From: a virus
Direction: 5' to 3' (one strand)
DNA length: 38,971 nucleotides
IMG/VR virus record: IMGVR_UViG_3300044630_001509
Coordinates: 1-38,971 of that record
Within the stretch, counting starts at the first letter, position 1. Every line of letters starts with the position of its first letter. The translations under genes were made by a program, and so were the position numbers. Below the pieces are notes generated by a model, which was not told where the DNA came from, ran no database searches, and saw only the letters and a list, made by a program, of their open reading frames with translations. This document shows, piece after piece, positions 1 to 32,918 of the stretch.

Positions 1-148
1 TTGCTGCGGCCTTGTGTGCAGCATCTGACCCTTTGACTCCATGCACACGTTTGGCCCATGGTGCTTTAGTTAGAAGGTCGGCATAATGCATATCGGCATT
101 AGGTTCGTCATAGCTGAGAAATACAATATCAAATTCTACTATTTTCAT
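1..148 (-). CDS. Glycosyltransferase-like protein, N-terminal fragment (gene runs off the left edge)
   Basis: An ATG at 148 opens a frame that stays open to the window edge (49 codons). The protein begins MKIVEFDIVFLSYDEPNAD and continues through WAKRVHGVKGSDAAHKAAA. I recall this FLSYDEPNAD ... AKRVHGV.G...AHKAAA pattern from T4-like aquatic phage proteins that look like nucleotide-sugar transferases with a GT-A fold. The catalytic part is outside the window, so the activity is not confirmed. The start overlaps the stop of the preceding gene as ATGA (148-145), which implies translational coupling and makes this the last visible member of the operon starting at 2808. Two more GT-A-like genes upstream in the same operon support a sugar-transfer role. 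The family call comes from recall and context, not a search. Confidence 0.55.
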   Translation of the reverse strand, partial: MKIVEFDIVFLSYDEPNADMHYADLLTKAPWAKRVHGVKGSDAAHKAAA

Positions 149-774
149 TTTATGTCAATCAAATAATTTTTAAAAATTCTTCTTGTGTATAAACTGAATT
201 TAGGCGGCAAAGACAGATTGGTAAATTTTTTAGATTTTTCTATTAGATCAGAAATTTTTAACGATATTGTATCGTATATAAAATTAGGGTCGTTATAATC
301 TGTAAGAAAAAATCTCATTTCAGTGTCACCAGACCAGGTAATATTTTTTTTCTTTACTGGTTGAAATTTTTCATGTTGGATATATGTTCCTGTATATTCT
401 TCACTTAATTGTAAAGTTAAAGATTTTTCTTCGATGCTATATTCTATGTAAAGATCAATTTTTTCATCATCGGCGTATTGTTTTTCAATAATTCGATGCA
501 GCACATCATCTATCTTAACAGCGGTTTTAACTTCGGCGATTTGAAAAGTATTATCTATAAGATCCACGAAACAAGAACTTATTTTTATCTTACCCTCAAC
601 TATCATTTCGGCTGTTTCTTGATCAACATCTATTGTATATTTTTCATTTCCTAAAACAGATTTTGGCCCTATACAATGTAATGAGCCCGAATTAGGATCA
701 TATACTGCTGTATACTTTGGTTCAGGCAATACCATGTTTTCAAATAGATCTTTTAGATTTTCTATTTCTTCCAT
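145..774 (-). CDS. Hypothetical protein, 209 aa, in the glycosyltransferase operon
   Basis: I do not recognise this protein. It is acidic and soluble in appearance, with no signal peptide, membrane segment or obvious catalytic motif. It begins MEEIENLKDLFENMVLPEPKY and its middle alternates charged and hydrophobic residues as in beta-rich proteins (for example IDLYIEYSIEEKSLTLQL near residues 105-125). The start is supported by AGAGGAA about five bases before the ATG. It overlaps the end of the upstream glycosyltransferase by 13 bases and its own stop overlaps the next start as ATGA. Sitting between glycosyltransferase-type genes suggests a joint role, but nothing in the sequence names one. 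Confidence 0.8.
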   Translation of the reverse strand: MEEIENLKDLFENMVLPEPKYTAVYDPNSGSLHCIGPKSVLGNEKYTIDVDQETAEMIVEGKIKISSCFVDLIDNTFQIAEVKTAVKIDDVLHRIIEKQYADDEKIDLYIEYSIEEKSLTLQLSEEYTGTYIQHEKFQPVKKKNITWSGDTEMRFFLTDYNDPNFIYDTISLKISDLIEKSKKFTNLSLPPKFSLYTRRIFKNYLIDIK

Positions 775-1601
775 ACCAATTCCTCTAAAATGTTAATCAT
801 TTCTTTGTTAATTTTATCTTTTTCAACGTAATGAACAATATCATATTGTTGATAATTTCCTAATTTTAATTGACCTTTTCTATTAAGATAAAATCCTATA
901 TGATCACTCCATGAAGTTGCTGGCCAGGGCCAATTCTGTATCATTGGTTTCATATGGACTACTCTAGGAAATTCTAATTCATAGCTGATGTTATCTTCTA
1001 TACCTAGTATTTTTGCGCTGAGCGCAAATGCTTCGTCGGTTCCTACGATCCTAGGTCTGTATTCAGATAAAAATGTATTCGAAAACTCAGTGGGATTTTT
1101 GATTATATACCGACCCAACGTAAAGAATTCTTTAGCTGATTCAGAATCCGTTTTGAAGAATGTGTATAGTGAATATAAATTAGGTAGATTATTTTTAGTA
1201 AATGCTCTACGATATTCGTCTGAATTAACTAACTCACTTCTATAATTATAAGATTTATTAGTGACATATAGTTCTGTATTAGCGACAAAATAATCAATCC
1301 AATGGCTGTAATCTCGCAGAAATAACATATCGGCATCAAGACACACAGTATTATCAAACGGAGTTAATTGATCCATCCAACTTCTACCATCCCAAAAAGA
1401 TTCTTTATCCCACGCTATCACATGATCAAATACCCAAGCAGAATTTAATTTTTTTACAGCATTGATGTCGTCGGTAACTAACGCCACTTTATCATATCCA
1501 GGTTTCTGTGTATGTTTTATACTTAATGCAAGACCGTAGGCCAATTCGAGATAATCAACTTTATCAGATGTTGAAATAATAATAAGATATCCAAAACTCA
1601 T
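762..1601 (-). CDS. GT-A-type glycosyltransferase (family 8-like), 279 aa
   Basis: This is a probable sugar-nucleotide-dependent glycosyltransferase. The N-terminus (GYLIIISTSDKVDYLELAYG) resembles the first beta-strand and nucleotide-binding loop of GT-A enzymes. A metal-binding DxD motif is visible as LDADML (D89, D91) after a hydrophobic strand, at the spacing usual for GT8-like folds. A later segment, RVVHMKP near residues 212-218, could supply the C-terminal histidine that often completes metal coordination; this is inferred. The start has GGAG five bases upstream. The first bases overlap the stop of the upstream glycosyltransferase as ATGA (1601-1598), so the two are probably translated in series. 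There is no membrane segment, so it should act in the infected cell's cytoplasm. Whether the acceptor is a virion protein, DNA or host glycan cannot be read from sequence. Confidence 0.75.
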   Translation of the reverse strand: MSFGYLIIISTSDKVDYLELAYGLALSIKHTQKPGYDKVALVTDDINAVKKLNSAWVFDHVIAWDKESFWDGRSWMDQLTPFDNTVCLDADMLFLRDYSHWIDYFVANTELYVTNKSYNYRSELVNSDEYRRAFTKNNLPNLYSLYTFFKTDSESAKEFFTLGRYIIKNPTEFSNTFLSEYRPRIVGTDEAFALSAKILGIEDNISYELEFPRVVHMKPMIQNWPWPATSWSDHIGFYLNRKGQLKLGNYQQYDIVHYVEKDKINKEMINILEELVWKK

Positions 1602-2461
1602 TTTATCTCCAAGAGTTTATCTGATTGTCTTATTAAACTTTGTTTATTCATAACATGAATATCTACATTATTCACTGATGCTGCAATATAATTTGAATCT
1701 AAATTTGGAGAAACTAACATTGTTAGTTTTCCTGATGTAGAAACATCTAGTAGAACATCTTTATCTAACATCGATAATACTGGTGGAAGGCTACTAGTAA
1801 TATCAGTTTCGTAACCATCTAATATATGTTTTGCAATACTAAATGCGATGTCATTCCTATATTGTCTACTATCAAATCTAAACAAATCTGAATAGTATTG
1901 ATAATTTTCTCTAATTTGATCTACTAAATTAAAAAATGTTTTCGAATATTCGCTTTTTGAGAACATCACAGTTGTAGCCCAATACAAATGTATTCCTGTA
2001 TCAGAAATATATCTATCGTGATAACCTAATCTTTTTTGATCGTAGATATCATTTATAGCTGAGGAAATTAATATATCCGAATCAACGTCCCAATAATTTT
2101 CTAGTGTATTAGAAAAAATTAAAAAATCACTATCTATTAATAGAGTTCGATCATAGGGAGTTAATTCATATGCAGAATATCTATTGGAATTTATAAACGG
2201 AACTAGTTTATTTTCAACTCCGTCATGCAGATTACGTTGATTATCAGTAACTGGTTTTTCTATTTCAATAATCTTATCAAACACTGATTTGGCTTTTTGA
2301 TAGATTTTAGATTGTTTCATCCATTGAATTGTAAACTTATCTGTTATTAGTGACACAGGAACCTGTAAATATTTTCCAGCTAAATGACCGGACACTATCG
2401 ACATTAACGCATAGTCAACGTCTCTGTTATTATGTGCAAAAATTAATATACCACGTGTCAT
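1598..2461 (-). CDS. GT-A-type glycosyltransferase-like protein, 287 aa
   Basis: This is a second glycosyltransferase-like protein, only distantly similar to its neighbour at 762-1601. The N-terminus MTRGILIFAHNNRDVDYALM fits the first strand and loop of a GT-A fold. A DxD motif occurs as LLIDSDFL (D110, D112), following TPYDRT, which parallels TPFDNT before the DxD of the next gene. That shared context argues for common ancestry and a duplication. The start lacks a clear Shine-Dalgarno and overlaps the upstream stop as ATGA (2461-2458), so translation probably depends on termination-reinitiation. The substrate is unknown. Confidence 0.7.
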   Translation of the reverse strand: MTRGILIFAHNNRDVDYALMSIVSGHLAGKYLQVPVSLITDKFTIQWMKQSKIYQKAKSVFDKIIEIEKPVTDNQRNLHDGVENKLVPFINSNRYSAYELTPYDRTLLIDSDFLIFSNTLENYWDVDSDILISSAINDIYDQKRLGYHDRYISDTGIHLYWATTVMFSKSEYSKTFFNLVDQIRENYQYYSDLFRFDSRQYRNDIAFSIAKHILDGYETDITSSLPPVLSMLDKDVLLDVSTSGKLTMLVSPNLDSNYIAASVNNVDIHVMNKQSLIRQSDKLLEIK

Positions 2462-2808
2462 AGATCTAATAGTTTTTCAACACTTCTGCTTTTTTTCAAA
2501 AGTTCGTACTGCTCATAATATTCTAATGTAGTGGTAAAATATCTATCAAAGATCTCATCTTTGAAAACCTGCAGGTCTTCGATCATTATTGGATTGTTAT
2601 TTACATCGAGAAGAGGCACACCCGACGTTCTGCCTTGATCGATCAACAATTGAACGAATGTAATCAGCGTCTGATCGATTTTAAATATACCGCCATTATA
2701 TCCGTAGGTCAGTGTAGCTGCAATTTTTTCTTTAAGTGTGCGTTTTTGAATTGCAAAGGTTTGTCGATAATTAGCAAATTCTAGAGATTTTTTTAAACGT
2801 TCATCCAT
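2458..2808 (-). CDS. Conserved phage hypothetical protein, 116 aa, first gene of the accessory operon
   Basis: This is a small, largely helical protein beginning MDERLKKSLEFANYRQTFAI and ending KKSRSVEKLLDL. I recall proteins of this shape (ANYR near the start, a YxNGGIF segment, a C-terminal KSRSV) as conserved genes of unknown function in T4-like aquatic phages. No catalytic motif is visible. An AGGA sits seven bases before the ATG. That ribosome-binding site lies inside the right arm of the inverted repeat at 2810-2867, so its translation may depend on which promoter made the transcript. Its stop overlaps the next gene's start, so control here would extend to the glycosyltransferases downstream. 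Confidence 0.75.
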   Translation of the reverse strand: MDERLKKSLEFANYRQTFAIQKRTLKEKIAATLTYGYNGGIFKIDQTLITFVQLLIDQGRTSGVPLLDVNNNPIMIEDLQVFKDEIFDRYFTTTLEYYEQYELLKKSRSVEKLLDL

Positions 2809-2809
2809 G

Positions 2810-2867
2810 TATTTTTCCTAACAATATAGTAGCAGTTTATTTATTTGTTGCTACACTAGGAAAAATA
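2810..2867 (-). promoter_or_regulatory. Nested inverted repeat over the ribosome-binding site, with a late-promoter box in its loop
   Basis: The arms 2810-2820 and 2857-2867 are perfect 11-base inverted repeats (TAGGAAAAATA with TATTTTTCCTA). Inside them a second perfect 6-base pair of arms lies at 2829-2834 and 2849-2854 (TGCTAC with GTAGCA), leaving a 14-base loop. The AGGA ribosome-binding site of the 116-residue gene is in the promoter-distal outer arm, so an RNA reading through from the fibre gene upstream would bury it. An RNA started from the box in the loop would lack the other arm and leave it free. There is no U-tract after the stem, so it does not look like a terminator. The repeats are seen directly; the switching role is inferred from T4 precedents. 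Confidence 0.6.
2838..2845 (-). promoter_or_regulatory. Late-promoter-like box AATAAATA
   Basis: The minus strand reads AATAAATA, matching the NATAAATA form described for T4-like cyanophage late promoters and seven of eight positions of T4 TATAAATA. With T4 spacing, transcription would start near 2832, giving a leader of about 24 bases that contains the AGGA of the gene starting at 2808. It lies in the loop of the nested hairpin. Confidence 0.5.
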
Positions 2868-2870
2868 TTT

Positions 2871-4919
2871 TTAAGGAGTTATTGCGCCCACAGTAATTGA
2901 TGGTGTTTCTACTGAGAAAGTGCCAGCTGACACAGGTGTAAGCGTCCCTGATGCTTCGAGAGTGTTTACTGATAAGGACACAGTTCCATCAACAGCATCG
3001 TAGGAAACTGCACCAGGATGTGAATCTAGCCATTCTACTAAGAATTCAATAGTGTTGGCTGTTCCTGAACTATTATCAGATACTGACGGAGTTCTAGCTG
3101 CTATTCTATAGATATTTGCAGAATATGGGCTAGTTGAACTGGCCGTATAAAAATATTGAAAAACGCTTGAAAGTCTGTAGAAATTTTGACCATCATTGGG
3201 TTCTGTTGTTGGACTTGGTTTTACCCCACCAAATGCCACTGTGCCGGCACTGTTTAACAGTGTGGTCCAGGATGAGTTTTGTTGCGATGCGGCACCACCT
3301 GTTCTAGAAGAAATGAATCGGATTTCGCCACCACTGTTAAAAAATGCTCGAGCTTTATTTGCTGTTGTAAACGACACGGTCACTGTACTTTGAATCTTAG
3401 TAGACCATGATACTCCATAGACTCCGGGCCATGTCTGTTGTGCGTTCCAAAAGACACCAACTGATGGGCCAGTTCTTGTAACAGCTTGGCTAGAGTGAAT
3501 TCCAAATCTGTTAGCAAGTAATACATTAGCGAACGGCTGATATGAAGAATATGGAGATGTACCGGAATTAGCTCTGACTAGATCGCCTACAGCCGCTGTT
3601 ACCGGTGCTGGTGCTGATCCAAATTGATGTATCCATGCATTAATTATATCATATCGTAGATTGGCCCATTCATTTACTGTTACTCTACTATCATCAGTTA
3701 CCTGAGAGCTTAACAACGTTTGCCCGTACCCAAAATCAGCTGTTCCTGTTCCCATCACAGATGCTACATTACTTTGTGTGGCATTATAGTCTACTTTCTG
3801 TATTTTTTTATCTAAAATAACAGCTGGCCCACTTGTTATTGATAGATCACCTACCGTGAAAGTTTTTGAAGCAAATCCATTATTTAAAGTTATAACTGCG
3901 GTTTCGTTTCCTTCAGTGGTTGATTCTGAAGCCATAGTTAAAGTAACCGATGCAGTTCCAGTAAGTCCTCCATCAGTACTCGAAACTGTAAAATTACCAG
4001 TGAGTGTGGCTGGGCTGAAATCTGCTGCTGCAACCCCAGTTATGGTATAAGGAAATACAGCGCCATTAGAAACATTTCTAGTTGATAACGTTATCGTTAT
4101 AGGACTGCCTTCTGCCACACCCGGAGATGACGTTGTTATTTTAAATTCAGCTTGGTCGTACTCTACAATGATCAAACCAGTACCGCCTGAACCGCCATTC
4201 TGAGCACCTAGTGTTAGAGCAGGTGCCGGTGGTGAATTATTATTATTCGCTAATGTACCAAATGTAGTTAATGTTCCGCCTGCACTACCCCCGCCACCGC
4301 CACCTCCGGTATTTGCTGCACCGTTAGCACCAGATCCTTCGCTTCCTCCACGGCCACCACCACCTGCTCCACCGTATGGAGAAGCCACTGGTCGAGCAGA
4401 ACCAGCAGAATATGTTCCGTTTCCGCCGCCGCCGCCTCCACCATACGCAGTTCCATTGAATAAATATCCGTTTCCGCCAAAACCGCCAGATGTACCAGCG
4501 ATTCCATTAGCTCCAGAACCGGCTCCGCCTCCTCCAATTCCACTACCAGTCACTGCACCGCTGTAATTTGTAGTTGTTGATAGAATCAGTGATGAACTTG
4601 CACCACCTGTTCCTGTACTGCCGCCAGATCCGCCAGCTACAGTAGTTGATCCGAACGTAGTCGTTCCACCATTCCCACCATTCGCAGCACCTGCTGAACC
4701 TAATGTATATGTAACTGTTCCTCCAGGGGTTACAGAAATGCCCATAACATATCTAACTCGGCCACCGCCACCGCCACCGCCACCGTTGGTAGTTCCATTA
4801 CCGGCTCCGCCACCACCACCACCACCTACAAGAAATGCATTTACCAAAAAGCAATCAGAGGGAACTGTCCAACTAGATGAAGGAACTGTAGAAGTAAGGG
4901 TGACTGTTTGCAATGCCAT
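2871..4919 (-). CDS. Glycine-rich tail-fibre or adhesin-like protein, 682 aa
   Basis: This is a probable virion adhesin or fibre component with three parts. Residues ~1-255 are a glycine-rich domain: a short beta segment (TVPSDCFLVNAFLVGG) leads into runs of seven to eight glycines, as in the glycine-rich domains of many phage fibres. Residues ~265-360 look like a Calx-beta or Ig-like beta-sandwich (VAEGSPITITLSTRN ... TEGNETAVITLNNG). Residues ~365-682 are paralogous to the whole neighbouring 313-residue protein, sharing FFNSGGxIRFxSSRTGGA, TSPYSANxYxI and DSHP/DTHP elements. In T2-type gp38 adhesins, glycine-rich motifs form polyglycine-II sandwiches at the tip; a similar fold here is inference. 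AGGAAG lies upstream of the ATG at a rather long spacing. Confidence 0.75.
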   Translation of the reverse strand: MALQTVTLTSTVPSSSWTVPSDCFLVNAFLVGGGGGGGAGNGTTNGGGGGGGGRVRYVMGISVTPGGTVTYTLGSAGAANGGNGGTTTFGSTTVAGGSGGSTGTGGASSSLILSTTTNYSGAVTGSGIGGGGAGSGANGIAGTSGGFGGNGYLFNGTAYGGGGGGGNGTYSAGSARPVASPYGGAGGGGRGGSEGSGANGAANTGGGGGGGSAGGTLTTFGTLANNNNSPPAPALTLGAQNGGSGGTGLIIVEYDQAEFKITTSSPGVAEGSPITITLSTRNVSNGAVFPYTITGVAAADFSPATLTGNFTVSSTDGGLTGTASVTLTMASESTTEGNETAVITLNNGFASKTFTVGDLSITSGPAVILDKKIQKVDYNATQSNVASVMGTGTADFGYGQTLLSSQVTDDSRVTVNEWANLRYDIINAWIHQFGSAPAPVTAAVGDLVRANSGTSPYSSYQPFANVLLANRFGIHSSQAVTRTGPSVGVFWNAQQTWPGVYGVSWSTKIQSTVTVSFTTANKARAFFNSGGEIRFISSRTGGAASQQNSSWTTLLNSAGTVAFGGVKPSPTTEPNDGQNFYRLSSVFQYFYTASSTSPYSANIYRIAARTPSVSDNSSGTANTIEFLVEWLDSHPGAVSYDAVDGTVSLSVNTLEASGTLTPVSAGTFSVETPSITVGAITP

Positions 4920-4921
4920 AT

Positions 4922-4963
4922 CGTAATTATCTTCCTTTTGTTGTGCTATTTAACACTATTACG
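4922..4963 (-). promoter_or_regulatory. Inverted repeat flanking a weak late-promoter-like box before the glycine-rich gene
   Basis: Six-base arms at 4922-4927 and 4958-4963 (ATTACG with CGTAAT) flank GTTAAATA (4947-4954), which matches six of eight positions of the T4 late box. The proximal arm lies between the AGGAAG and the ATG at 4919. The layout resembles the stronger structure at 2810-2867, but the arms are short and AT-rich, so chance is a real possibility. Confidence 0.25.
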
Positions 4964-15643: not shown

Positions 15644-15651
15644 TATTTATT
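15644..15651 (-). promoter_or_regulatory. Late-promoter-like box AATAAATA at the end of the giant gene
   Basis: The minus strand reads AATAAATA, an exact NATAAATA match, overlapping the stop codon of the 4621-residue gene. With T4 geometry, transcription would begin at about 15638. It would let the structural protein and the fibre array be transcribed independently of the nearly 14-kb gene upstream. Confidence 0.4.
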
Positions 15652-18600
15652 CGGGCAATTTAGTAGTGCGTTTAGCAATGAATTCTGCCATAGGTGTGGT
15701 ATTTTCCAGCAACGATTCGCCTGCGCTGGCTGTGGTTTCACCACGATCGTACCATACTTTACCAGTCCTCCTTATCACAGATATTCTAGTTCCTGCCGGA
15801 ATCGCAGTGGTTAATCTTATGTAATTTGCAACCCCGTCCACGGCAAATTCAGCTTCAAGCTGCGTATCTGCTGCAGGACTGCTGGCTCCTAATGTTTCAT
15901 CGTATACAGCTAGAGGATCTTTGCGTAATCTTTTACCTGCAGCAAAAACTTCTACTTGATCGCAGGGGCCGTGTGTGGTCGGAATCGTTGATCGATACCA
16001 TGTGGTTCTAGTGCCTTGTACTGGTGTAAAATCCAACGGACCTACTAACAAGCTGCTACCATCTGATACAAAATCCTGACGGTCTTGTGTTTCATTATAA
16101 GGCACAGTTTCTCGAGGACCGACGTCTGCTACAACACTGCCTGTAGCATGTAATACCGGTATCGCAGTACCAAAGCTTCCTCTACGTAATTTTGACAATA
16201 CATTGCCTACTTTGCTGTTGTATTCAATACGTTCGCCATTAACAGTGATTATACCCGGAACGTTTCTCGAAACGATAGGTTCTCCTAATAGGCTACCGTC
16301 ATTGACTGTGATTTCTTGATCATAGTAATTTAGATCTTTGGCCAGTTCTACAGCACCAATAGAATATCGTTTGAAATGATAGATATTCAACATGTCTTTG
16401 TGTATTTCGAATGCGCTAGGTGCACGATAAATGTCTGAGCCAAATGTCACTACTTTGATTAAATCTGCCGCAGTGGAATTGGCTGTGAGGTACAGTACAC
16501 TTCTTGGTAGTGATACATAATAATCTTGATCTTTGGTTAATCTTACACCATTTTTATAAACCCATACATAGCTAGCAGCCAGTGGTGTTTGTGGTAGATA
16601 ATAGTTAACCTTGCCTCCGGTATATTCGTCTGAAACTATACCCATCGATGGATATTCACTGAACCATGTTACATTTATGATATCATCATAAATCATAGCA
16701 ACATCAGCATCAATTACTAGATTGTTATCTACTACAGCATACTGCGATCTAAAATCGTTTTCAATCTTAACAACATCGCCTTCGACAAGTATCGCTGGAT
16801 CGATAGCTACTGTTTTAGTAGTACCGTTGTAGGTATAATCTTGAATTACTGTTTTTAATTCATCATTGACAAATACTTTGATATTCTGTGACAGAATGGC
16901 ACCAGCTGGTTCCTCGGGGTCAACACCTAATACAACATTTGCTGTTATTCCATCATAGGTTGTATAAACAGTATCTACTCCTCTAAGTGCTATTCCATTT
17001 AATTCTACTACCATAGAAGATACAGCCGACGCCCGAGATAGATTCACAAATGTATCTAAATCAAAACTTCTTGTGCTGCCTTCAAACTGTATAGATTGTC
17101 TGTTTACACGAACTATCGGCAATTCTGTAGAATCTACATCTGATACTGATCCTATACAGATTATTTTCACAACATCTCTGAAACTAGGATTAGTACCAAA
17201 TCTTATCAATGTTTTTCCCGCGGTAGTAACAACACCAGTGCTGTCAGTGAATCCCACGTCCTCATATTCTCCATTTACTGTAACTAACACAGCAGAAGTA
17301 TCGCTGTAGTTTGCACCTGTTAGGAATAAGCTGGTTGTGCCATCAGCAACAAATTCTTGGTAATCCAATAGTGTAACACCTCCTAATCCAACCTCTATTA
17401 TTTCAATCACTGCGCCAGCAGCTGGTGCTGTTGTGAATTCAATCTGTTTAGCGATAAAATCGATGCTGTAATTGATTGTAGAATCTGTACTATTATATTC
17501 TTGTTTGATCTTATTAACATATACCAATAGTGATCGAGATTCTAAGATTTCTAAATCAATGTCATAGATCTTAGTAACACCGTCTGAGATGATGGTCTTA
17601 GATTGTAAAGGTGCTGCGCCAGAACGAGTGTTATTAAACACTTTGATGCTGACGCTGTCTAATACCTGACCCGGAACATTTTCTTCTGGTGCTGGCACTT
17701 GATCAGGAGAAATAAATGTATCACCATCTATAGATATTTCTTCTGCTAATGTTCCTCTAGCAATCGCATACATACCGTCTATGGTATTTGGAGCAATGCT
17801 GGTGGCTGTAGATCCTGTTGCTGCAAATGTACCACCACTTAGTCTAGTATCTAAAAGATTATTATCAGTAATAGTTACACTGCCGTCGCTTTCTACAGGA
17901 CGAAATATCAGTATGTCTCCAACATTGGTCTGTATGTAATCTCCGATCTCTACGGTGTTTGTAACACCATCACCAATAAAGGTAGGCATCTGAGCGTTGG
18001 GATTTACGGATGTTGATGAATCATCTCCTAATATAAAATAAGGAGAATCTATTCTCACAGCCGCGGGTGCCTGTGTGGATTCAACAAATACCACTGTTGG
18101 TGCTGTTGCCGGACCAAGTGTATCAATGTCTCTTGCGATTCCTGTTCCTGCACGTTTTAAATAGATATTGATTTCTTGGTCCACAGCTGGTATGAATGGT
18201 AGAGTCACTGAAGTAGTGCTTCCGTCACAGACCACATAATAATCAGCTGCTGCTTCTACGCTGTCCCAGTTATCTGTGAACCACGGTAAAGCATCCCAGC
18301 CGCCAGTGACATCGAATGTTGTGCCTTGAATTTGTACACCACCAAAATCTATGCCAGTCATTAACTGTGATAATTCTTTGCCTCGCATTCCTGAACTTGG
18401 TGCGTAGAATTTTTCTATACGATTAACTGCATCCAGCAAGGAGTCATTTTTCTCATAGGCGACTTTAATAATACTACCTGCTTCGGGTACTGTTACAAAT
18501 ATAAGTTTGCCTTTTAATAAACTGTAGGTATCTGTGGTGGATGTGTATAGATTGATTATGTATTCATCATTTAACACCACTTGATTGTCTTTGGTAATAG

Positions 18601-21600
18601 TGATTTTAGTTTTATCTCTAGTTGGTGCATAGTTTAAATCAAATACCGCAGTAAATCCTGTGGCAGTGAATGTCTGTTCCTGAGATAGATCAATGTAAGT
18701 ACCTTGTTTAGATAATCTATCAAATTTCACTGTTATACCAAATGTCCTAGCTTTAGAATCGCCAAGTACTGCAATCGCAGATGCTGGTTTGGTGCTGTTT
18801 CCACCTACTAATGTTATAGTTGGTGTTTGTGTATACCCGGTACCTTGATCTAGGATTTCAAATCCAGAAATTTCACCGTTAGACACAAATGCTCTTGCTT
18901 TGGCTCCGGTGCCATTACCGGAAATCAATACATTAGGTACTGTGGTATATCCTTCGCCTGCATTAGATACTTCTATTGCAGTTACCCCAAATCCTTGATT
19001 ATCTAACCACCAACGCCAAGGATACGATTGTATTTCTTCATTGGATGTAGATATAGGAACTATTTTTCCTTCGGCTGTGGAGAAAGTCGGTGGTAGGTCA
19101 AAATCTGTTATTGCCTGTCCTAGTGGTTCTGTGGTTGAATATTTGCTGGAATATTCGCGAACCGTGGTTCTATATGGTTTAACTTCTTGAATGTATTCTT
19201 GGAAACTTGCTAAATTATCGTTTTTATAATTTAATTTCTGTTCAAGGGGTCCAACAATATGTGTGGCATTCAAAAAGCTGGTTTTAAATGCCCAATCAAT
19301 GTATTGTTGTTCAGCGAAGGCATATCGTACAGCAGTAAAGAATAATGTATTCCACTCAACGGCATATTCACCGATGTATAATTTATTTTTGATATTATCT
19401 AATATGATACGCAATTCTTTACTGTTATCAATGTCATATGATTTAGTATCAAAAGATGCGGTATTATCAAAGCCAATTCCTGATTGTTCATTGTTCCATA
19501 GAGATGAACTTAATTGGAATGTGCCTGCGCCCCTTCCCACTAGTTTATAATTGTCAAAGAAATATGCATTAGTATCTGCTGTTTTTTTAAACACTGCCCA
19601 ACTGCCGCTGCCATATTCTGTAATTCTAATTAAATCACCTATCGCTACTGTCACAGAAGGTATCAATGTAAAATATACGACTTCCTTAACAATTCTACTA
19701 GTAGATCCGTACCCCTCGGCCCACCAGTCCTCAGAAAATTGATATTTCGTTGTGTCATAGGCCTGCGTTCTACTTCTATAGAAAGTTTTTCTAATATCGT
19801 CCCAGGCATAGATAGACCAAAATCCGTTAGTGGTTTCGTCTGCATTAACTAACACTGAAAATTGTCTGACTACAGCAGTGGCTGATGTATATTTTCTTCC
19901 TTTGGTAATAACTGTCGCAGAAATTACTCGGCCCTGATTATCAATAGATAATCTTGCTGTGGCTCCTGTACCATTGCCCTCAATGACTATAGGAGGAGCT
20001 TTTTTATACCCGAACCCGCTGTTAACTATGACAATGTTATCAACTTGATTGTCTATGATGTTGACTGACAGAACGGCTTGACGGACTCTAGCTGTACCGA
20101 TAGTGATTAAATCAACTTGATTATCTACTGTTTGATCATACAAGTTTAATACTTCTGATGGAGCTGCTTCAAAATCATTTAATGTGTCAAATGGGACAAT
20201 ATCCAAGAAAGGTTCTTTCTTTAAGAATGTGTTTATTTTATCGATAGTGATTTTTAATATTCTTCTTCGATCTATAAACATTCCCTGACGTGGGCGGAAG
20301 TTGATTCCATATTTCTGTTTGGCAGGCAATTTAGGATCAGGAATAACATTACCAACTACGTCGCTGCCTATCAAGCTATCAATCCATTTAGTTTCTAAAC
20401 TTACTGTTGGCAGACTATCTGCTAATCCCTCTGTCAACAGCTGATATTCATTGTGAATAGCATTCAACTGTTTTTTATTTTTAAGATATTGAATGTTTAA
20501 CAATGCAGTGTCTGAAGCTAGTATTGATTCAAAATTGTATGTTAAAAATTTATCAGAATCGATTAAAGCGATAAAGGCTACGCCCGATCCTGCTGGATTT
20601 TCAATCGCTGAAGCTACTTCCGAGGCTGCAATTCTTCTGCTTGGTTTACCTGAAGGAGTAATTGTTTTATTTCTTACCCAATAGTAATATAATGTGCTAG
20701 TGGCTAGTCCAGTATTAGGATTTATTAATTCTTTTATTGTATACACTGTGTTATTAGGATACAGAGGCTGTCCAGAAATTCCTTGAGAAATTCCGTCGTT
20801 AGTATCAGCAAGAGCTGCCCATTCGCTAGGCAGTAGTAATGTTTCAACCCATTCGTAAACATCAATAGAAGCTCCATGTGCTAGAGAATTCCAGTTACCT
20901 GTTCTATAAGCAGCATCGCCCTGTTCATAATACTTCCATTTGGCTGTGGATAGGTCCCACCATAGTTCTCCAACATATCTTTCAGCCCATGCTGTTGTTG
21001 TGTCTACTGCCTGTTCATCAGTCCCGATGGTATAAACTGCCGGATCATAGATAGTTTTAAATTTGATTTCTTGTTCTGCAATATTAAGAATTTTTAATTT
21101 AGCATTATCGACATAATCTATGTCTTGTATTTTAACATTCTTGACATTGTCATATAATTCAATACTCTTGATCTCTGTTGTATCAACGACAGCCTTCCGA
21201 GCCTCTAGTGTATTCCAAGAATTTACCAATGGGTCTTTTCTAAATAATCTAACTATACCAGTCTTAGGTCCATCATACGCTAGTACAGTTCCATGTGTTG
21301 CAGGAGCGATATAATCAGGAGATCCTACTGCAATCGCTGAGTGCGAGCAATCAACACTAAATCCAAATGATTCAAATGGGGATAGTGTGGCTTCTAATTT
21401 TTCGACTAAGAAATAATTTTCGTCTTTTTTCTCAAACACATATACCGCACCAGAATATCCTTTTCTGTCAACGAATCTAGTCCTGCTTTGGTCAAATGTT
21501 GTGCCTTGTGTGATGTCAAATCTAGTAGGCAATGAATATGGAGAATTGTTAGCACCTATAGCTATTCTATCTCCATTGTAACTAATCGATGCACTTTGTC

Positions 21601-24600
21601 CAAAATACTCGTTGGGATAAATTTCAAAACTTTCGAGTTTTTGTTTGAGTCGATATTCGATACCGGCAAAACTATCTGTGCGCAGAATATAGGCGCTGCC
21701 TTGATTTTGAAAATTGATATCTGCTTTGGGGCTGGTAACCAGCAGAGTCGTTCCAGAATAATCTAGATCTAGACTCCAACCAAATTGATCGCCTGCTGAG
21801 ATCGGAGTAGTTCCGGAATCTATATCATTGAGATCAATCATTGAACCTGAAGTAACGGTTTGTTTTAATTCATAAATTCCAGCTAGAGATCTTTGGTAGA
21901 TGAAAACCTTTCCTGATGATTCTCCTGTGCTGTCGCCGACATTATCCCAAGGTTGTCCTAGGTCTGGGGCTTCATTATAACTTCTAGTTGTGGAGTCTAA
22001 TGATTCCCCAAGCCTCTGTACTAATTTGTAATATCCGGTTTGATATCTGACTACATCTCCCTCGATATACTCTATATCAGGTCTCCATACACCTCGGAAG
22101 TTAGGAAAATATTGACCATCACTGAATGGTGAGCCAACTGCTAACACGCTACCATCTCTGTTCATTGAAATACTGGTTCCAAACTTGTCGCCTATTTTAA
22201 TCAATTCTGCAAGCTGAGAATTTGATAGTATTCCAACCTGCGTTTCTAATAAGTTGCCTAATGTTGAACCATCGTCATCGATGGCAATGTTTGTTGGCAA
22301 TGAATTATGTGTGGAGATAGGATCCATTCTTTGCCAACCTGAAGATTCCACAGATATAGTACTACCATCGCCGTGTGTTGAATCTTCTAAACACATCCAT
22401 AATGCTGAATCATACCATACAATTTCACCTGCATAGTAAGCCGTGGACACCGGATCATAGATACCTTTGTAATTTTGATTTTCTAGATGTTTCCATTCTG
22501 TGCCATTATAGGTATAAAGATATACCCGACCGCGACCATCCAAGGATTCTACCGCAGATACTGCCATGTAATATGTGTTTCCTGACTGACCAATAGTTAT
22601 ATCAGATGCAAACAATTCGTCATTATTAGCACGAGGACTAACAAAAGAAGATTTAAGAGACCAGCTTTGATTTTCCCATTGGTATATTGAAATCATACCT
22701 TGATTGGTATATCCAGGTGCTGTCCCTGCTGAGAAAGCTGGAATTGATGTTGCCGGAGCCCAATCATTGGTGTCAAGATTTATGGAACTTCCGTCACCTA
22801 CATTAGTGGCCAATGATTTCCACAGTTTGCCTGCATATACCACAATGTCGTCTGTGAGATAGGTAGCAGAAGGATTGAATGTTCCCTTGTAGTTACTACG
22901 GATACCGCTGGCATTAGGTGAGCCAATAATCAGCCATCTATTATCCGGACTCACTGCCATGGATTTACCGAATGACCCTAATACTCCAGATTCGAATCCT
23001 GCGGGCGGAGCTATGATTTGTTTTAATATTAACCCTGATGAATTTTCAATATAAGACATCACGTATCCAGATCCAGGGATACTAGAAATTGTTTGTTTTA
23101 GATTGTCAATGTATAATACTTTTGATCCGGTGTATAACGGAGAAGTTGTTCCGTATTCTGTGAGTTGTTTTTCGACAAATTGTTTTTTCTTCTCAATGAC
23201 TTCCCAACTGTTAGTGCCGTTATTATCAATCCATAATTTAGAACCATCTTTTAATATAGCAGACTGTTGAAAATCTAGCACATCATATGATGCAAATCTA
23301 GCTGGTGTTAGTGTATAGATATACGCTATAGTGCTGTTGTCAAATAAGGGATCTTGTGCCGTCGAAGAGACTTCAACTGTTATTGTAAATTCTCCAACTG
23401 CTGTGATCCTAAAGAATCCTTCAAGATTTGTGATTTCTTTAAAACCAACAATATCTTCCACAACAAAATTATGCCTGCGATCCAGTGTTATTGTAACATC
23501 GGTTTCAGATCTAGTGACAGTTGTTATTGTTATAATCGGTGACTGATTGTATCTCAACACAGACCATGTATAATTATCAAATGTGATCCATATATGATCG
23601 TTTTCAATCACAGAATTGATATCAATATTTAGGATATCATCTCTAGATGCAACAACAAAATCTATTTGATTTGTTTTTACATAGCCTGCAGTTCTAACAG
23701 GCTCGGCTTCGGTGGATGTTGGATTTATGTGAGTTGTAAAAGGAATTGGTTGGATAGAAAAATCTGATCCTACTATTCTATAATATTGATCTAGTATATT
23801 ATTGGGTTCAGTTTCAAGTACTAGTATCGGCTGCGGATTAATTTGAAATTTGTCTTTTTCTAATCTAATTTCTATTTCTTTAAGTTGGTCTATTCCGCCT
23901 AGTCTACCTACTCTGAAAGCCCACTCTTCATTTAATTCACAAGCATCGGCGGTACGACTGAGTTTGTTGAATATCTTGGTCACAGCATTAGCTGTACCTT
24001 TTTCACGAATAAATCCTTGATACAATCTAAATTGTGTTACAGGATCTTCCGATATATTCTGTAGATATTCTCTGGTTTGATATCCTACGGAGTGTCGAGC
24101 CAGTGCTCGTTGATTTTCTCCTATGCCTGACGATGTAGTATCATAGTAATCTTCAAACTGATTAACTTTATAATCAAAATTTGCTACTAATTGTTTTTCT
24201 GGTGTTGAATCTAATTTGGACCAATTAACAGGTTTGAATTCCTCAACTCCTAATTGATTAACCAAGCTGGTCCAATTGTAACTTCTGTATGAAACGATAT
24301 CACCTAGTCGATAATCTGTAAATGGTTGCCACGCTTGTATGTTTACATTGTCAAACAAGAATCCTGGGCTGGTATAATCGCCGTCCCAATCCACTGTGCG
24401 GAATCCCTGAGACTTAATACGTTCTTGACGATACCCTGTGGTCTTGTCATAGAGAATATCATTGAACACAGTTCTATCATCAAAAATAGTCACATGTTCT
24501 TTTAGAACATAATAGAGTTTTAGATAATAGATGCCTTCTTCTGTGTTTGCAGTTTCGACTGTGATATTTTGAAAGGTTCTATTAACATTAATCAAGTTAG

Positions 24601-27600
24601 GTGTTATTGGTTTTCCGTCGCCTTTAAGTACTTGATAATCGTAAAATCCATCAAGAATGTTATCAGCCACTCCCACAGGAATAGTAACGTCTAATTTTTG
24701 TGCAGCGGGACTTAGTGTAATCAATGATCCCACAGCCCAATTATGTCTGGTCCAGAACATAAATTCTTTACAGCTGGTTAGCCAATCCTGTGCCACTTGA
24801 TTTTCAGCATCATATCTATCAAATTTAAATCCCTGGGATTTGAGATATTCTTCATAGCCTAATAAGAAATCAACAACTTCTTGTACAGCGGTCAATTTAG
24901 TCCCATAACTTAATTTTTTAACAGCTCTATTGAAATTTCTTCTTCTGAATGCTTCAACTGCGCCTATCAATGGCAGTTTAGGTAATTTTTTCCATAAAGT
25001 ATTGTCAAACTCAGTACCGGCTGTATGTGTCTTCAACGCTCTATAGAAAGTATTGTTTAATCTACAAATCTGTCCATTATTGAACTGCTTTCCTGCTTCC
25101 CAGTTAACAAAAGTTTCTGACACACCTCCTACAGATATTAGCGGATCCTTTTGATTAGGTGACACATCGGTATAATTGAAATATGGCGTTGAATCATCAT
25201 AACCTGTGATAATCCAGCCACCTTCTGTTTTTTCTAAAATAACTCCGCTGTAGGTTACATTAGAGATTGGTGCACTGACATTAAAAATTATATCATAATT
25301 TTCTGGCGGTACAAATACACTGCTGCTGACTGATTTTGGACTCTTAGAGTCTAAAAGATATCTCTGTTGACCTTTGTCAACGAACCCACTTAACCGTGTA
25401 GTCAGTCTTACATCAAGATTTTTTATTTTTCTAGTAACTTCGTCTATGGGCACGCCGATTGATTTTGCATAATCTACAAGATAGTTTAACAATCCAGCAG
25501 TTTGATCACTGCCGGCCACAGGCATCACAATATCATTTAATGTGATAAAGAGATCTGTGGTTTTATGCACAGTTTGACCTAGCTTGTTTAATTTCACTCT
25601 AGATCTATCAAGACTGTCATTGATAAAATCAAATGGTTTCATCAAGCACATTGCTATTGTAACAGCGAATGGCCATTCTGAGCTAGCTCTCCAAGCATAT
25701 TCAACTGGTGCAATATCACCAAGGACAAACAAACCTTGATTATTAATTAGTGCAAAGTCGCCTGCGAGATTTGAATCCAGTGGACTTAAAAGTTTACCGT
25801 CGCCGTCAACTGGAATATGTGACATCAGAGATGGTCTTTTATATCTGTCATAGATACCTTTACGATCTCCTTGGCGAATGATGCCGTCACGCAGATCTTC
25901 CCATAAAATTAAATTGTATTTGGTGTATGGTGCTGGTCCATATTCATCTTCCCACCATGTTGGCATTTCAGAAAAACCTAACATTTCCCAAGGGCAACGA
26001 TGAGGACGATCTGTGTCATAGAACCATTTATACACTCCTCTCCAATAGCCAGGCAAGCTCTGCAGACCCGTTGGATCAGTCATGTTGGTATAGGTATATG
26101 TGAAACTGTTTTCTGAATCGAAGGTCGTGTTAGCGGTGTAACTAATATTTGTGTTTTGTATCCACTTTAAAAATTCTTGATTTACCACGGCATCAAGTTG
26201 AGGTTTAGTATATAAAGCATTTCCATAATATCCACCAACAACTTTATCAATGCTAAACAAAGATTCATTATATTCTTGTTTGATATTATTGTATATTCTG
26301 TATTCTAATTCTAATAACAATTGATCTCGGAAATCATCATATGCAATAGTGATGCTGCCATCGTGTCCTTGTATGACTGTTTTCGGCTCTATATACGTGT
26401 CATCAACAAATTGCATAGGAGTATATTTTTTATACAATCCAATAGCTGTTGGAGTTGTGGGAATGTAATTTGTTGCTGTTGATACATATTCTCTGATTTC
26501 AATTAAATCGTTAATTGCTAAGGCTTTGCTGATAATAACAAAACCAAATGTAGAATTGAACTCGTAGTCTTTGGCATTCAATAATTGTTGATTGTTAATA
26601 TAAACATATACAGCTCTGCGACTAAGTTCTGTTAATGAGAATTTTGCAGAGAGAGCGAATGTGTTAATTCCGGTGTCTTCAACAATATATTTTATAGCTG
26701 TATAAGCACCGCTACCGATCATGTCACTGTCAGCAAACGCACTGTCTATGGTTTTTGTTCTGGTTAGATCTGCGATAATATCATCTACGAAATCTGCGAC
26801 ATTGTCGTTGTATGGCAATGTTGTAGCTCTATCTAAGAAATTATTTTTAAAGTTAGTATATGATTTCTTAGCATACTGCAGAGCCTTGATGACGTTATTT
26901 GTTTTATCACACAACAGGCTTACCGCAATTGGTGCTATCCCAGAATGATGCATGTATCTGGTACTGTAAGTGTTCCAAGATTTTCCAAACTCGTCTAATG
27001 GAATGTCTCGTAGATCATTTAGTCCTGGAACTACTCCAGTCCAATTAGGATTAAAATCCAATCCAGAATTCAAATGGTCAGCTGCTTGGCCAAGTGTCCA
27101 TTCCGCTACAGGTGCGTTAAGAGGATTTTTTTCTAACCCCATAGGTATTTCATAATACCCAGTGTCTGGCGGAACATCGGTTACTAATTTAATAGATATA
27201 ATGTCATTTACTTCGAATGTTTTTTCACTGAAAATAAATTTGTTAAAATCTCGGGTGTACGGGCTTTTAAATATTCCGCCATTGAGATAGAATCTAATTT
27301 CATAATCGCTATCGCTTTCTATTTCATTCCAATCAATAATAGTAAGTGTTAGAGTATTGGTAGGTTCTGTTATTATTACGCTGTCTATTAATGGCATTAG
27401 ATATTTTCTAGAAGTATCTATCCATCCATTACCCCAGCCGCCATAGCCTCCAGAATCATCTAGATAATAAAAACCTGTGGCTATTCTTCGAGTTACGGTC
27501 TCAGTGCCTTCTTTGTATCTAAAGGTATCAGTATCCCAATTAAAATGAAACAACAAATCGCCAATGTTATTGATATTAAGATAAGCTAATGGAAATCCTA

Positions 27601-29513: not shown

Positions 29514-32500
29514 TTATGTTGTGGTTACAATACTATTAATAGGTGCTCTAACCTCAGATGCGGTTATCGCAGAAACTATCACTATGTCATCTACTGTGGC
29601 GCCGTTAACAAAAATCTCATCTGGACCACTCTGTATTTCAAACAGACTACCAAATGACTGGCTTGTCTGTCTTGGAACTATTATTATGTTGCTGATATCG
29701 GGTGCTACTTGATTCAGCACATAAGTAACTAATTCGCTGAGATAAAATCTATCACCAAAATCCCAGTTTGCGATATCAAAAAATTCATTAATGGCAGTGA
29801 CTATTCTAACTTTTAATTCATTATCATTAATTGTTTGTCCGGGATTTTTAACCACTTTAAATTGCGCCTGCAATTTTGTTTCTGCTTTTGATCCAAACAA
29901 TACTTTGTATTTCACAGGATGATAAATGATATCGTCGCTGATAGATTTAATAGCATCTAATTTGGTACCGAAGCTGATCTTTAAACTGTCGCTGTTTGGT
30001 GCTTCGGGTTCAGTATCTGTTACACCTGTTAGGTAAGTTCTAAATGCAGAATCATAGCTTCTAGTCAATAAGAAAATGTCAACGATATTACTTACACTAG
30101 GATCAATTCTTCTATCAACACTGGCGTTGTGTACATATTGAAATTTAAGATTGTCTCGTCCTATCACGCCTTTGTATGCACTTTCTAATATCAGCGTATT
30201 AGTTGTTCTATCAACACGTTTAACTTGATCTTCTGCAGAATCATAAAAATATATCAACTGACCATCTATATAATCAGAAATTGTAATCAGCGATTCTCTT
30301 TCAACTATCAATATTAAATTATCTGAATTGTCCACTAATTGATATACCTGAGAACCAGCCTCGTCAATTATTTCTTCAAAGAACAAATAGTTTAATTGTG
30401 TGTCTTCGCCTACTATCTGTTCAAAGGCTTCGGGATTATCCACAACACCATCATCGTCTCGATCAGAGAATGCCACTTTAATTTCTATAGAACTTTCATA
30501 GCCATCATCAAATTTAATTGTGTCATCGATTTCAAAAGTAAAATCGTTGCTGATAGGAACAGCCGATCCTGTGCTAGATTTATTGATTCCTAGAACCTTC
30601 ACTTGATCTTTGACCACTCGTCCTAGGCTGTCGTTGTATTGTTTTTCATTAGCATCAAAATAAAATCTATTTTGTTCCACGCTACCAAACACATAATTTA
30701 ATCCACGGATTCGTATTACATATTGATCTACGTCTTTCACAAATGCCAATATCCAAGATGCATCTAAATTACTGTTTGTAGCATCTCCCGCTTTACCTAA
30801 ACTGAAATTAGATACTAGATCTAAATCGCTGGCGGAGATTATTTTCCAGGTTGAAGTAGCTACATCAAATCTCAGACCAAAGTTTAATTCTTGGAATATC
30901 TGATTAACGATTTCTGTTTCTAGTGCTGTAGGTAAATCATTAACAAACTTAGGAACGATTCGATTCGCTATCGCACCCGTTGGCACTGGATCATTAAAAG
31001 TTATTGGTCCAAGACCTGTAGTTAACACTCCTCTGCCGGCATTGGTACCGTCACCAACTATTCTTACAGTCTTAGTCCATAGTCTATCCGTTTGTTCCGA
31101 GTCGTTGGCATCAATCAATACTAGCTCGCCTTTTTTGAAAGCATATCCTGCAGGGGGAATAAATTTAATCAATGCACCCGGAGCGAGATATTTTAAGCTG
31201 CTGGTAGAATATACTCCTACCTTTAATAAAGAATTGTCAACCACGTTTTTAAAATATCCTGTGGCCATATTAACATCTGAAGTAACGCTCTGCCAAACAC
31301 TGTTTAAGTCTGTAAAAAGAATTTTATCAAATTTAGTGATATAGAAATTATATACATCTGTGTCAGTAAAAATAGGTTCAACACTACGTCTAATAAAATT
31401 TAATATTTCAATTCTACTAGTAAATTTAAAATTTAATTGACTTTCTACCTGTTCTTTATAGATAAACCCGTCATCAGCAAACACATTTATACTGCTGTAT
31501 TTTCCGCTGGCATCGAGTATATCAAAATTTCTACTAATACCACTAGATGTTCTGTTTATAGATTTAATTTTCAATATGTCTTGAGAACTAGATAACGGCG
31601 CAAGATTATAGTCTTCGCCTGTGATCATTCTATTCTGTGTATAATATACTGCAGGAGCATTAGTTCTAATTGAATCAATATCTTCCGATGCAGCACTAGA
31701 TGACACCGAATATTGTAGAGCTAATCCCACAGTTAATGTCTGAGACTGCCCGTTCCTACTAACATACGGAATTGAAATATTAATTCCTCGCAACTCTGCA
31801 GGAGCAATAGTATAGCTTAATCCGTTACTGACTCTATAATAAGCACGAAATGCACCTTGTGGTAGATTACCGTATACTCCATCGGCAAATGCTAGATTAA
31901 TTCTGTCTTCTTCTTTGGTTTCAACTGCAAAAATGTTTCTAATATCTTGTGTCAAACTGTTATAAGCGATATTGTTACCAATTAAACTGACAACTTGCGT
32001 CCATTGGTCTAATTGATTACCGCTGCTTCCGAGACTGAATAACCATACATCATCATTGTTAATATTTGCACTATCAACTGCAACTGTTTCGTTAGTTGTT
32101 GGAACATCTATAGAAAAATCTGCAAGTTCTAAACTGCCTTGTTTGAACATTAGATAAAATCCAGTGTTCTGGCTTCCTGGCCCTTTGCCGTCGTTGCGAT
32201 ATATGAATCCTAATTGATTTCCTGGTACAGGTGGTTCTTCATACACTGCATCACTGTCTTTGAATGCTGTGCTGACTATTTCAAAGGTCATAGATCTTGC
32301 CGCTACTGTTTTATTGAATGTATAAATTGGAACATCGGTGCTGGTTGTCTTGAATCTATATTGTTCTGTGGGAATTCCCTGTATTGTTCCAGATCCTTGG
32401 CTGCGACCAAATTCTGTATTATCGGCCATGGCTGCATTGAGAATTGTGATAAACTGTTCTAACCAGTTGGTATTGGTTGGGTCATTCCATGATACTATTT

Positions 32501-32918
32501 GATTAGAGAGATTTTTACCGTTTGAATCTAATAACTCTTCTGTGGTCGTTACGCTGGAAAATTTAATTAATCCGTTGGCCGCTATGTTTCTTTTAGCATT
32601 GTAGCTGAGCATGCGAGCCAGGCGCAAAACGCTTTCTTTACGTTCTGCTAGTTCGATGAAATTTTCTCTCGATGCTAGGTCAATACGGAAAGCTAGACTT
32701 TGTCCTAAAAATGCCACTGCATCAATAAGAGCCATGTATTCCGATGATTCGATATAATCATTAAAATCTTCTGGATAATTCTCTCTTAGATAAGTGATAA
32801 TAACCCTACGTAGATTTTCAAAGTCATATGATTTAAAATCAGCATTCTTAAATGTCTGATAGACTCTGGTCCAATCTTCATTGAGTATTAGGTTATTTTG
32901 TCTACTAGTTGTTGTCAT
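29514..32918 (-). CDS. 6: Baseplate wedge protein gp6 (baseplate J-like C-terminus), 1134 aa
   Basis: This is the wedge ring protein that links neighbouring wedges around the hub. The N-terminus (NEDWTRVYQTFKNADFKSYD, then LRENYPEDFNDYIESSEY and ASRENFIELAERKESVLRLA) matches the pattern I recall for gp6 of T4-like cyanophages. The last ~180 residues have the J-like arrangement: VKYKVLFGSKAETKLQAQF, ELKVRIVTAINEFFDIANWD, FYLSELVTYV and FGSLFEIQSGPDEIFVNGAT. At 1134 residues it is much longer than T4 gp6 (about 660), with the extra material in the middle. AGGAA sits seven bases before the ATG. It lies between gp25 and the giant protein. Confidence 0.8.
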   Translation of the reverse strand: MTTTSRQNNLILNEDWTRVYQTFKNADFKSYDFENLRRVIITYLRENYPEDFNDYIESSEYMALIDAVAFLGQSLAFRIDLASRENFIELAERKESVLRLARMLSYNAKRNIAANGLIKFSSVTTTEELLDSNGKNLSNQIVSWNDPTNTNWLEQFITILNAAMADNTEFGRSQGSGTIQGIPTEQYRFKTTSTDVPIYTFNKTVAARSMTFEIVSTAFKDSDAVYEEPPVPGNQLGFIYRNDGKGPGSQNTGFYLMFKQGSLELADFSIDVPTTNETVAVDSANINNDDVWLFSLGSSGNQLDQWTQVVSLIGNNIAYNSLTQDIRNIFAVETKEEDRINLAFADGVYGNLPQGAFRAYYRVSNGLSYTIAPAELRGINISIPYVSRNGQSQTLTVGLALQYSVSSSAASEDIDSIRTNAPAVYYTQNRMITGEDYNLAPLSSSQDILKIKSINRTSSGISRNFDILDASGKYSSINVFADDGFIYKEQVESQLNFKFTSRIEILNFIRRSVEPIFTDTDVYNFYITKFDKILFTDLNSVWQSVTSDVNMATGYFKNVVDNSLLKVGVYSTSSLKYLAPGALIKFIPPAGYAFKKGELVLIDANDSEQTDRLWTKTVRIVGDGTNAGRGVLTTGLGPITFNDPVPTGAIANRIVPKFVNDLPTALETEIVNQIFQELNFGLRFDVATSTWKIISASDLDLVSNFSLGKAGDATNSNLDASWILAFVKDVDQYVIRIRGLNYVFGSVEQNRFYFDANEKQYNDSLGRVVKDQVKVLGINKSSTGSAVPISNDFTFEIDDTIKFDDGYESSIEIKVAFSDRDDDGVVDNPEAFEQIVGEDTQLNYLFFEEIIDEAGSQVYQLVDNSDNLILIVERESLITISDYIDGQLIYFYDSAEDQVKRVDRTTNTLILESAYKGVIGRDNLKFQYVHNASVDRRIDPSVSNIVDIFLLTRSYDSAFRTYLTGVTDTEPEAPNSDSLKISFGTKLDAIKSISDDIIYHPVKYKVLFGSKAETKLQAQFKVVKNPGQTINDNELKVRIVTAINEFFDIANWDFGDRFYLSELVTYVLNQVAPDISNIIIVPRQTSQSFGSLFEIQSGPDEIFVNGATVDDIVIVSAITASEVRAPINSIVTTT

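Follow-up and report, generated by a model that had tools for sequence, protein, structure and literature searches.

The window, by which we mean the whole stretch of 38,971 nucleotides analysed here, carries on its minus strand a tail-fibre-like gene followed, after a gap of 62 nt, by a run of four genes. The gap holds a late-type promoter box enclosed by two nested stems, the outer of which includes the Shine-Dalgarno sequence (SD) of the first gene of the run. The features, given in the coordinates of the window, are as follows.

145-774, minus strand: gene for a 209-aa protein, function unassigned, the final gene of the run to lie complete in the window
762-1601, minus strand: gene for a 279-aa protein, a second glycosyltransferase by eye only, no family match
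1598-2461, minus strand: gene for a 287-aa GT-A-like glycosyltransferase, in ATGA overlap with the 116-aa gene and with no SD of its own
2458-2808, minus strand: gene for a 116-aa protein whose predicted fold resembles that of DUF4376 proteins, the first gene under the proposed lock
ATG at 2808, minus strand: start codon of the 116-aa gene
2810-2820, minus strand: 3' arm of the outer stem, UAGGAAAAAUA, containing the SD
2816-2819, minus strand: SD AGGA, 7 nt 5' of the ATG
2829-2834, minus strand: 3' arm of the inner stem, UGCUAC, from the fold and from inner-only covariation
2832, minus strand: predicted transcription start, placed at the box plus 5 nt by the T4 rule
2838-2845, minus strand: late-type promoter box AATAAATA, with its TAAATA core at 2838-2843
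2849-2854, minus strand: 5' arm of the inner stem, GUAGCA, from the fold and from inner-only covariation
2857-2867, minus strand: 5' arm of the outer stem, UAUUUUUCCUA, upstream of the promoter box
2871-2873, minus strand: stop codon TAA of the fibre-like gene
2871-4919, minus strand: tail-fibre-like gene, 682 aa, with a PF21722 glycine-rich domain and a weak match to phrog_863 (tail fibre assembly)
4947-4952, minus strand: late-type box TAAATA before the fibre-like gene

The label 'fibre-like' rests, in the window, on the weak phrog_863 match and the glycine-rich domain. Several genes further upstream in the window look structural, some with late-type boxes before them, and an uninterrupted reading frame of 4,621 codons (15647-29512) lies between a baseplate-like gene (29514-32918) and the fibre-like genes.

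Downstream of the gap, what the sequence-only reading had called a glycosyltransferase operon does contain a GT-A-like gene, but in second place, the first being the gene for the 116-aa protein. Sequence searches gave no convincing family match for this protein, and among the Pfam matches (E ≤ 1) obtained with 27 members of its family DUF4376 did not occur. Its AlphaFold model (pLDDT 89.5), compared with BFVD by Foldseek, matched an uncharacterised phage protein (E 9e-7) and then DUF4376 proteins (E 5e-5 to 1e-3), the latter at a TM of about 0.5-0.6; a fold search of the PDB returned nothing below E 0.36, and a sequence search of the PDB gave six weak matches (E 0.29 or more) for the 116-aa alignment and none for the 287-aa one. 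The Alteromonas phages V22 (fibre and chaperone gp26/gp27) and A5 (gp8/gp9) have tail-fibre chaperones with a DUF4376 domain, encoded directly behind the fibre gene (PMC7289586, PMC10579305), and the T4 fibre chaperone is likewise encoded directly 3' of its fibre gene (PMC7289586). On its modelled fold, we regard the 116-aa protein as a candidate tail-fibre chaperone, with the difference that the likeness of the 116-aa family to DUF4376 is one of fold and not of sequence. The passages of those two accounts that deal with the chaperones do not mention an RNA lock.

For the 287-aa protein the nearest PDB structures are those of glycogenin (E 4e-8, TM about 0.45-0.5), and its modelled fold is of the GT-A type, as judged from the best model of five (pLDDT 89.7, with 79.7 to 46.2 for the remaining four); the one weak Pfam match, to GT8 at E 0.031, lies below the cut-off. 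The 209-aa protein has no family match above the cut-off and one below it. Neither the DNA of the operon (145-2808) nor the 116-aa and 287-aa proteins had a match in the cultured-phage collection.

A late-type promoter box inside a hairpin

Read along the minus strand, the gap runs from the stop codon TAA (2873-2871) through UAUUUUUCCUA, GUAGCA, AATAAATA, UGCUAC and UAGGAAAAAUA to the ATG, with 3 nt separating the stop codon from the outer 5' arm. The outer arms pair at 11 of 11 positions and the inner arms at 6 of 6, and the predicted start at 2832 splits the inner 3' arm; on re-reading the sequence, the positions that had been given for arms, inner stem, box, SD and ATG proved exact throughout. 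This is the sole 11/11 inverted repeat with a loop of 3-40 nt in the window. Because dinucleotide shuffles of the whole window hold 0.74 such repeats on average (100 shuffles, maximum 4), the window alone would not settle the matter; shuffles of the 62-nt gap itself hold an 11/11 repeat, with a loop of up to 60 nt, in 6 of 5,000 cases. The hairpin is more than chance, and the strong evidence for it is comparative.

Folding of the two transcripts gave the contrast that the sequence-only reading had foreseen, with the SD closed in read-through RNA and open in RNA starting at 2832. The read-through RNA (2780-2880, minus strand) folds at -15.5 kcal/mol (z -2.28; equalled by 6 of 200 shuffles), with the SD at 2816-2819 paired to 2858-2861 and a predicted SD openness of 0.01. 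The RNA from 2832 folds at only -4.3 kcal/mol (z +0.64; equalled by 141 of 200 shuffles) and takes up no fold that closes the SD. Rfam gave no match at E ≤ 1 within positions 2400-3200 of the window.

The TAAATA motif is scarcer in the window than expected (23 observed against 56 expected, both strands together), and its placement is uneven: 6 of the 12 minus-strand copies fall, by half of their length or more, within the 333 noncoding bases, directly 5' of genes, as against 1 of the 11 plus-strand copies in such gaps. Among the relatives described below, a TAAATA lies within 75 nt of the start of the 116-aa gene in 80/80 distinct upstream regions and 32-37 nt 5' of it in 75/80, and the loop (TAAATA and the bases flanking it; AACTGC or AAGTGC comes next in most cases) is the best-conserved part of the leader. 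Of 20 relative contigs, 9 have a T4-type Gp23 and the other 11 are at most 97 kb long; all eight long relatives examined have a partial match to gp55 that is weak yet consistent (31-39% identity to T4 gp55). The assignment of the phage as T4-like thus holds for the lineage, the Gp23 and the gp55-like late sigma factor coming from contigs of relatives and not from the 39-kb window. Given its position before genes and these Gp23 and gp55-like matches, the box is likely a late promoter. T4 late transcription starts 5 nt past the promoter box, and it is by analogy with this rule that use of the box and a start at 2832 are predicted. The T4 late transcription system has been reviewed (PMC2988020).

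Conservation and paired change of the arms

Relatives were drawn from IMG/VR as the best 80 of 125 for the 116-aa gene, the best 80 of 347 for the 287-aa gene and, in a third set, the best 80 of 358 loci. The 116-aa gene was matched in 154 entries including the window, of which 151 had a usable start and 5 were too short upstream, leaving 80 distinct upstream regions; one of these is the window's own sequence, found identically in a second locus (L003). We scored an SD as closed at an openness below 0.3 and modelled the late RNA from box+11. Nearly all 80 distinct sequences retain the leader, some of them with a protein identity as low as about 60%. Over the 80 regions the median SD openness was 0.01 for read-through RNA, rose to 0.70 for RNA begun at the predicted start, and stood at 0.37 with the part 5' of the start shuffled. 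The SD was closed in read-through RNA in 70 regions and not so in the other 10; openness rose by more than 0.3 in the promoter-started RNA in 64/80, and exceeded 0.6 there in just 53/80.

Seven sequences forming a subclade (L007, L008, L009, L011, L012, L013 and L092) have a late RNA that is partly closed (SD openness 0.12-0.58); in these the box stands about 4 nt farther from the start, with the partner of the SD at or behind it, so that the late RNA retains part of the helix. In two others (L063, L080) the SD is predicted to be closed even in the late RNA (0.02-0.03), and two more (L075, L076) were scored with a box at -15 that is probably not the promoter.

The second gene of the run appears to share the leader of the first. 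The start of the 287-aa gene lies in the 4-nt overlap in 76 of 80 loci, and an SD-like motif precedes it in 1 of 80 distinct loci, the other 79 having none. From the overlap and the missing SD we infer that translation of the 287-aa gene is probably coupled to that of the 116-aa gene, which would place both under one lock.

Whether the arms change together was assessed with an alignment-free arm-swap test, in which each 5' region was paired with its own leader and with those of the others, after removal of near-duplicates (45 of the 80 sequences retained). Own arms paired better than swapped arms by a mean of 3.6 kcal/mol (z -9.67; 0 of 20,000 permutations). The excess was present for the outer stem only (z -7.2), for the inner stem only (z -8.6), with T-runs replaced (z -6.3) and inside subclades (z -4.4, n = 18; z -2.2, n = 14), while the reversed-arm control gave z -1.5. 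Set against the three nearest differing relatives, own arms were better in 33 of the 45 and worse in 12 (Wilcoxon p 0.0002). The own 3' arm was the best of the 45 for just 8 sequences and among the best five for 25, ranks that may be expected when relatives share arms. On the opposite strand the excess was almost as strong (z -7.4), but the mRNA strand has more G-U than A-C pairs (90 vs 61, p 0.022, under neutral scoring; 64 vs 17 in the fitted alignment), which points to RNA.

RNAalifold found no consensus structure in a plain alignment of all 45 sequences, because the arms slide against each other. A covariance model built from 8 of the sequences and searched at E ≤ 1 in 81 sources found the site in 60 of them, its 8 builders included, and thus in 52 of the 73 others; it missed 21, and at 12 of the sites it matched on the opposite strand too. 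The window, one of the 52 non-builders, scored 37.9 bits (E 1.7e-7). In the model-fitted alignment both sides had changed in 16 of 16 pairs, and 86.6% of cells were paired against 75.2% when shuffled, counts that lean towards the model to which the alignment is fitted and that took in the 12 opposite-strand matches and one unrelated match in the window; with these matches removed (60 rows, 56 distinct) the figures were 85.7% and 73.1%. The compensatory change that the sequence-only reading had proposed to look for in relatives is thus present, and arms that change together across relatives are strong evolutionary evidence that the leader is selected.

Look-alikes and known T4 switches

Counted by a simple ORF rule rather than by a gene caller, seven long relatives and the window together contain 122 genes that have a usable SD and a TAAATA in noncoding sequence. 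The 116-aa gene was closed in all eight, as against 23 of 107 other late-box genes, 17 of which were also open in late RNA; the group sorted as baseplate-hub genes includes one mis-sorted gene, and of the 6 true hub genes 5 were closed. Run over 1.10 Mb at E ≤ 1, the covariance model found the 116-aa site in 6 of 7 contigs (G004 was missed) and the hub site in 3, with further matches to one opposite-strand copy and one other place; the site in contig G005 scores the same as L104, a sequence from which the model was built.

The hub gene (PF12322 / phrog_150) was the closest look-alike. From 80 loci, one of them without a box with a scorable start, 59 remained after removal of duplicates; 50 of these were closed and 46 gained more than 0.3 in the late RNA. 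We rejected this hairpin as an instance of the same element, since its own arms pair no better than swapped ones (z +0.9, 34 dereplicated sequences). Its 3' arm overlaps the late box of a divergent gene, and the SD is closed without covariation because that box supplies the complementary letters. In the hub gap (L212-L291; G001 at 187873, G002 at 152112, G010 at 62266) two opposed late boxes form a near-palindrome over the SD, which looks like a by-product of the two promoters. Among hub genes of cultured phages, those of Phosso and Atu_ph07 had no clear switch, and that of PA5oct had no SD accepted by the rule. Separately, one long relative has a strong late-box hairpin predicted to cover the SD of an FkbM-type methyltransferase gene (L158 18178-19332; G001 at 58178), with a change in openness from 0.00 to 0.99.

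That T4 places late promoters inside hairpins, as the sequence-only reading had noted, is in print: leaders that sequester the SD or hold a promoter in a hairpin are described for e, soc, 49, I-TevI/II/III and segB of T4 and for mobE of Aeh1 (PMC3014915, PMC2988022), and for gene e a repression of about 100-fold is reported (PMC3014915). Our own computation covered e, soc, 49 and I-TevII, segB lying too near the end of its piece to be scored. Of the two precedents that had been named, e passed the accessibility test and soc did not: the SD openness of e rose from 0.00 to 0.58, with the box 32 nt 5' of the start, whereas soc was without a switch by this measure (0.80 to 0.68), its predicted helix covering the AUG and not the SD. 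Genes 49 and I-TevII switched from 0.00 to 0.66 and 0.89 respectively.

The leader described here resembles that of e in having the late box inside the hairpin, the SD in the 3' arm, a closed read-through RNA and an open late RNA; it differs in the gene that it precedes and in the blocked RNA, which is early in T4 and probably late here. The remaining T4 and Aeh1 leaders likewise share the promoter-in-hairpin or SD-sequestering logic, but there it acts on late genes carried on early or middle transcripts (PMC2988022). RNA structure is also found at the starts of T4 genes 38 (the fibre chaperone) and 25; according to a passage of PMC3014915, that structure lies between SD and AUG and aids translation, whereas here the SD is inside the stem. 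A review of T4 predicts the structure of gene e in closely related T4-type phages alone. A literature search that was far from exhaustive found reviews of T4 and no report of such a lock for the present lineage. On comparative sequence evidence, the leader is most likely a new and deeply conserved instance of the T4-type lock; T4 locks are known gene by gene, and here one lock is kept across nearly all 80 sequences.

Proposed mechanism and alternatives

We consider it quite probable that the leader acts in cis as an RNA lock of the T4 e / 49 / I-TevI type. In the mechanism that we infer, including its read-through, the size of its repression and its purpose, read-through RNA from the fibre-like gene would carry both arms and fold the SD of the 116-aa gene into the outer stem, and with the SD inside that stem 30S subunits would be excluded. 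A T4-type late promoter inside the hairpin would start RNA at about 2832; without the 5' arm, this RNA would have an open SD and the 116-aa protein would be made, the 287-aa gene following by coupling under the same lock. The purpose would be to uncouple the dose of chaperone and glycosyltransferase from the long structural message. The promoter-in-hairpin mechanism proposed from the sequence is in this respect well supported, the support being computational throughout (folds, conservation and covariation), and as judged from the sequences the hairpin is real and most likely a working lock. The further suggestion that late expression is enforced twice, by promoter and by structure, is doubtful, since a late-type box (4947-4952) also precedes the fibre-like gene. 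With this box, the read-through RNA is probably a late one as well, though it may also be made early, and what the lock keeps apart may thus be two late messages and not an early one from a late one.

The alternative with most in its favour is a translational-coupling hairpin, in which ribosomes finishing the fibre-like gene open the lock and the chaperone-like protein tracks fibre translation; we hold it unlikely, though it may act jointly with the internal promoter as one of two keys. A same-strand ORF of at least 60 aa ends within 400 nt upstream in 79 of the 80 regions (median 58 nt), the stop lies 54-65 nt before the ATG in 76 of these 79, and the 5'-most partner of the SD is a median of 8 nt past the stop (69 regions with such a partner), although compact gene packing alone would place the stop there. 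Since the stop codon adjoins the 5' arm, terminating ribosomes may open the read-through RNA as a second key. When the 12 nt past the stop were held unpaired, in the 79 regions (the one other having no upstream ORF in reach), median SD openness rose from 0.01 to 0.59 and 53 were open (> 0.5), compared with 65 of the 79 for promoter-started RNA; the effect depends strongly on the footprint assumed, a 9-nt one giving a median of 0.31 and 27 of 79 open. That the first locked gene encodes a candidate fibre chaperone fits coupling, but the lock is also present behind genes that are not fibre-like by eye: the upstream gene resembles the fibre-like genes of the window in 22 of 24 loci read by eye, and of the two exceptions L039 is closed and L097 has an openness of 0.39. 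In L047 the SD is closed with the stop 115 nt away, and because the lock is kept there the promoter key looks primary.

The other readings are far less probable. A palindrome acting at the DNA level (promoter architecture, a cruciform or opposed promoters) that covers the SD by chance and has no role in RNA likely explains the hub look-alike, with its 3' arm overlapping a divergent late box, and it draws support from the own-arm excess on the opposite strand (z -7.4) and the 12 other-strand model matches; yet the gap of the window has no plus-strand TAAATA, and the excess of G-U over A-C on the mRNA strand (90 vs 61, p 0.022) argues against it, so that we consider it very improbable for the 116-aa element. 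We give even less credence to an operator for a translational repressor protein, as with T4 gp43, gp32 and RegA, in which the loop would be a binding site and not a promoter: the start site of T4 gp43 does carry a hairpin operator to which gp43 itself binds (PMC3014915), and the TAAATA loop is the most conserved part here, but TAAATA recurs before many other genes without such a hairpin, and the register and length of the helix vary more widely than a protein operator would be likely to tolerate. The least probable is an intrinsic terminator, processing site or mRNA stabiliser of the fibre-like gene; the hairpin does stand directly behind the upstream stop codon, but in the window the U run of the mRNA-strand stem lies on its 5' side, the stem is not followed by a U tract, and the hairpin persists behind other upstream genes (L039, L097).

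Returning to the RNA lock, a version with two keys, in which the cassette is silent on passing RNA and opened either by the internal late promoter or by a ribosome finishing the fibre gene, seems to us on balance unlikely. If it were true, the dose of the fibre helper would follow both promoter use and actual fibre synthesis, a selected design would run across a large uncultured T4-like lineage, and the known early/late switch would be extended to telling two late messages apart. The dose of fibre helper and glycosyltransferase is a possible reason suggested by the conserved leader, and the hairpin offers a simple reporter system for testing.

In L097 (3141-4235) the upstream gene looks radical-SAM-like by eye (CxxxCxxC), with the weaker lock given above, and L095 has an upstream ORF as long as that of L097. 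A pattern-based scan of 84,980 species genomes yielded one further relative of the 116-aa family (L295 90-260); it lies on a 7-kb contig in a Bacteroidetes MAG, which may be a phage contig and from which no firm host follows, and by eye it has the box, the arms and the SD in the same layout.
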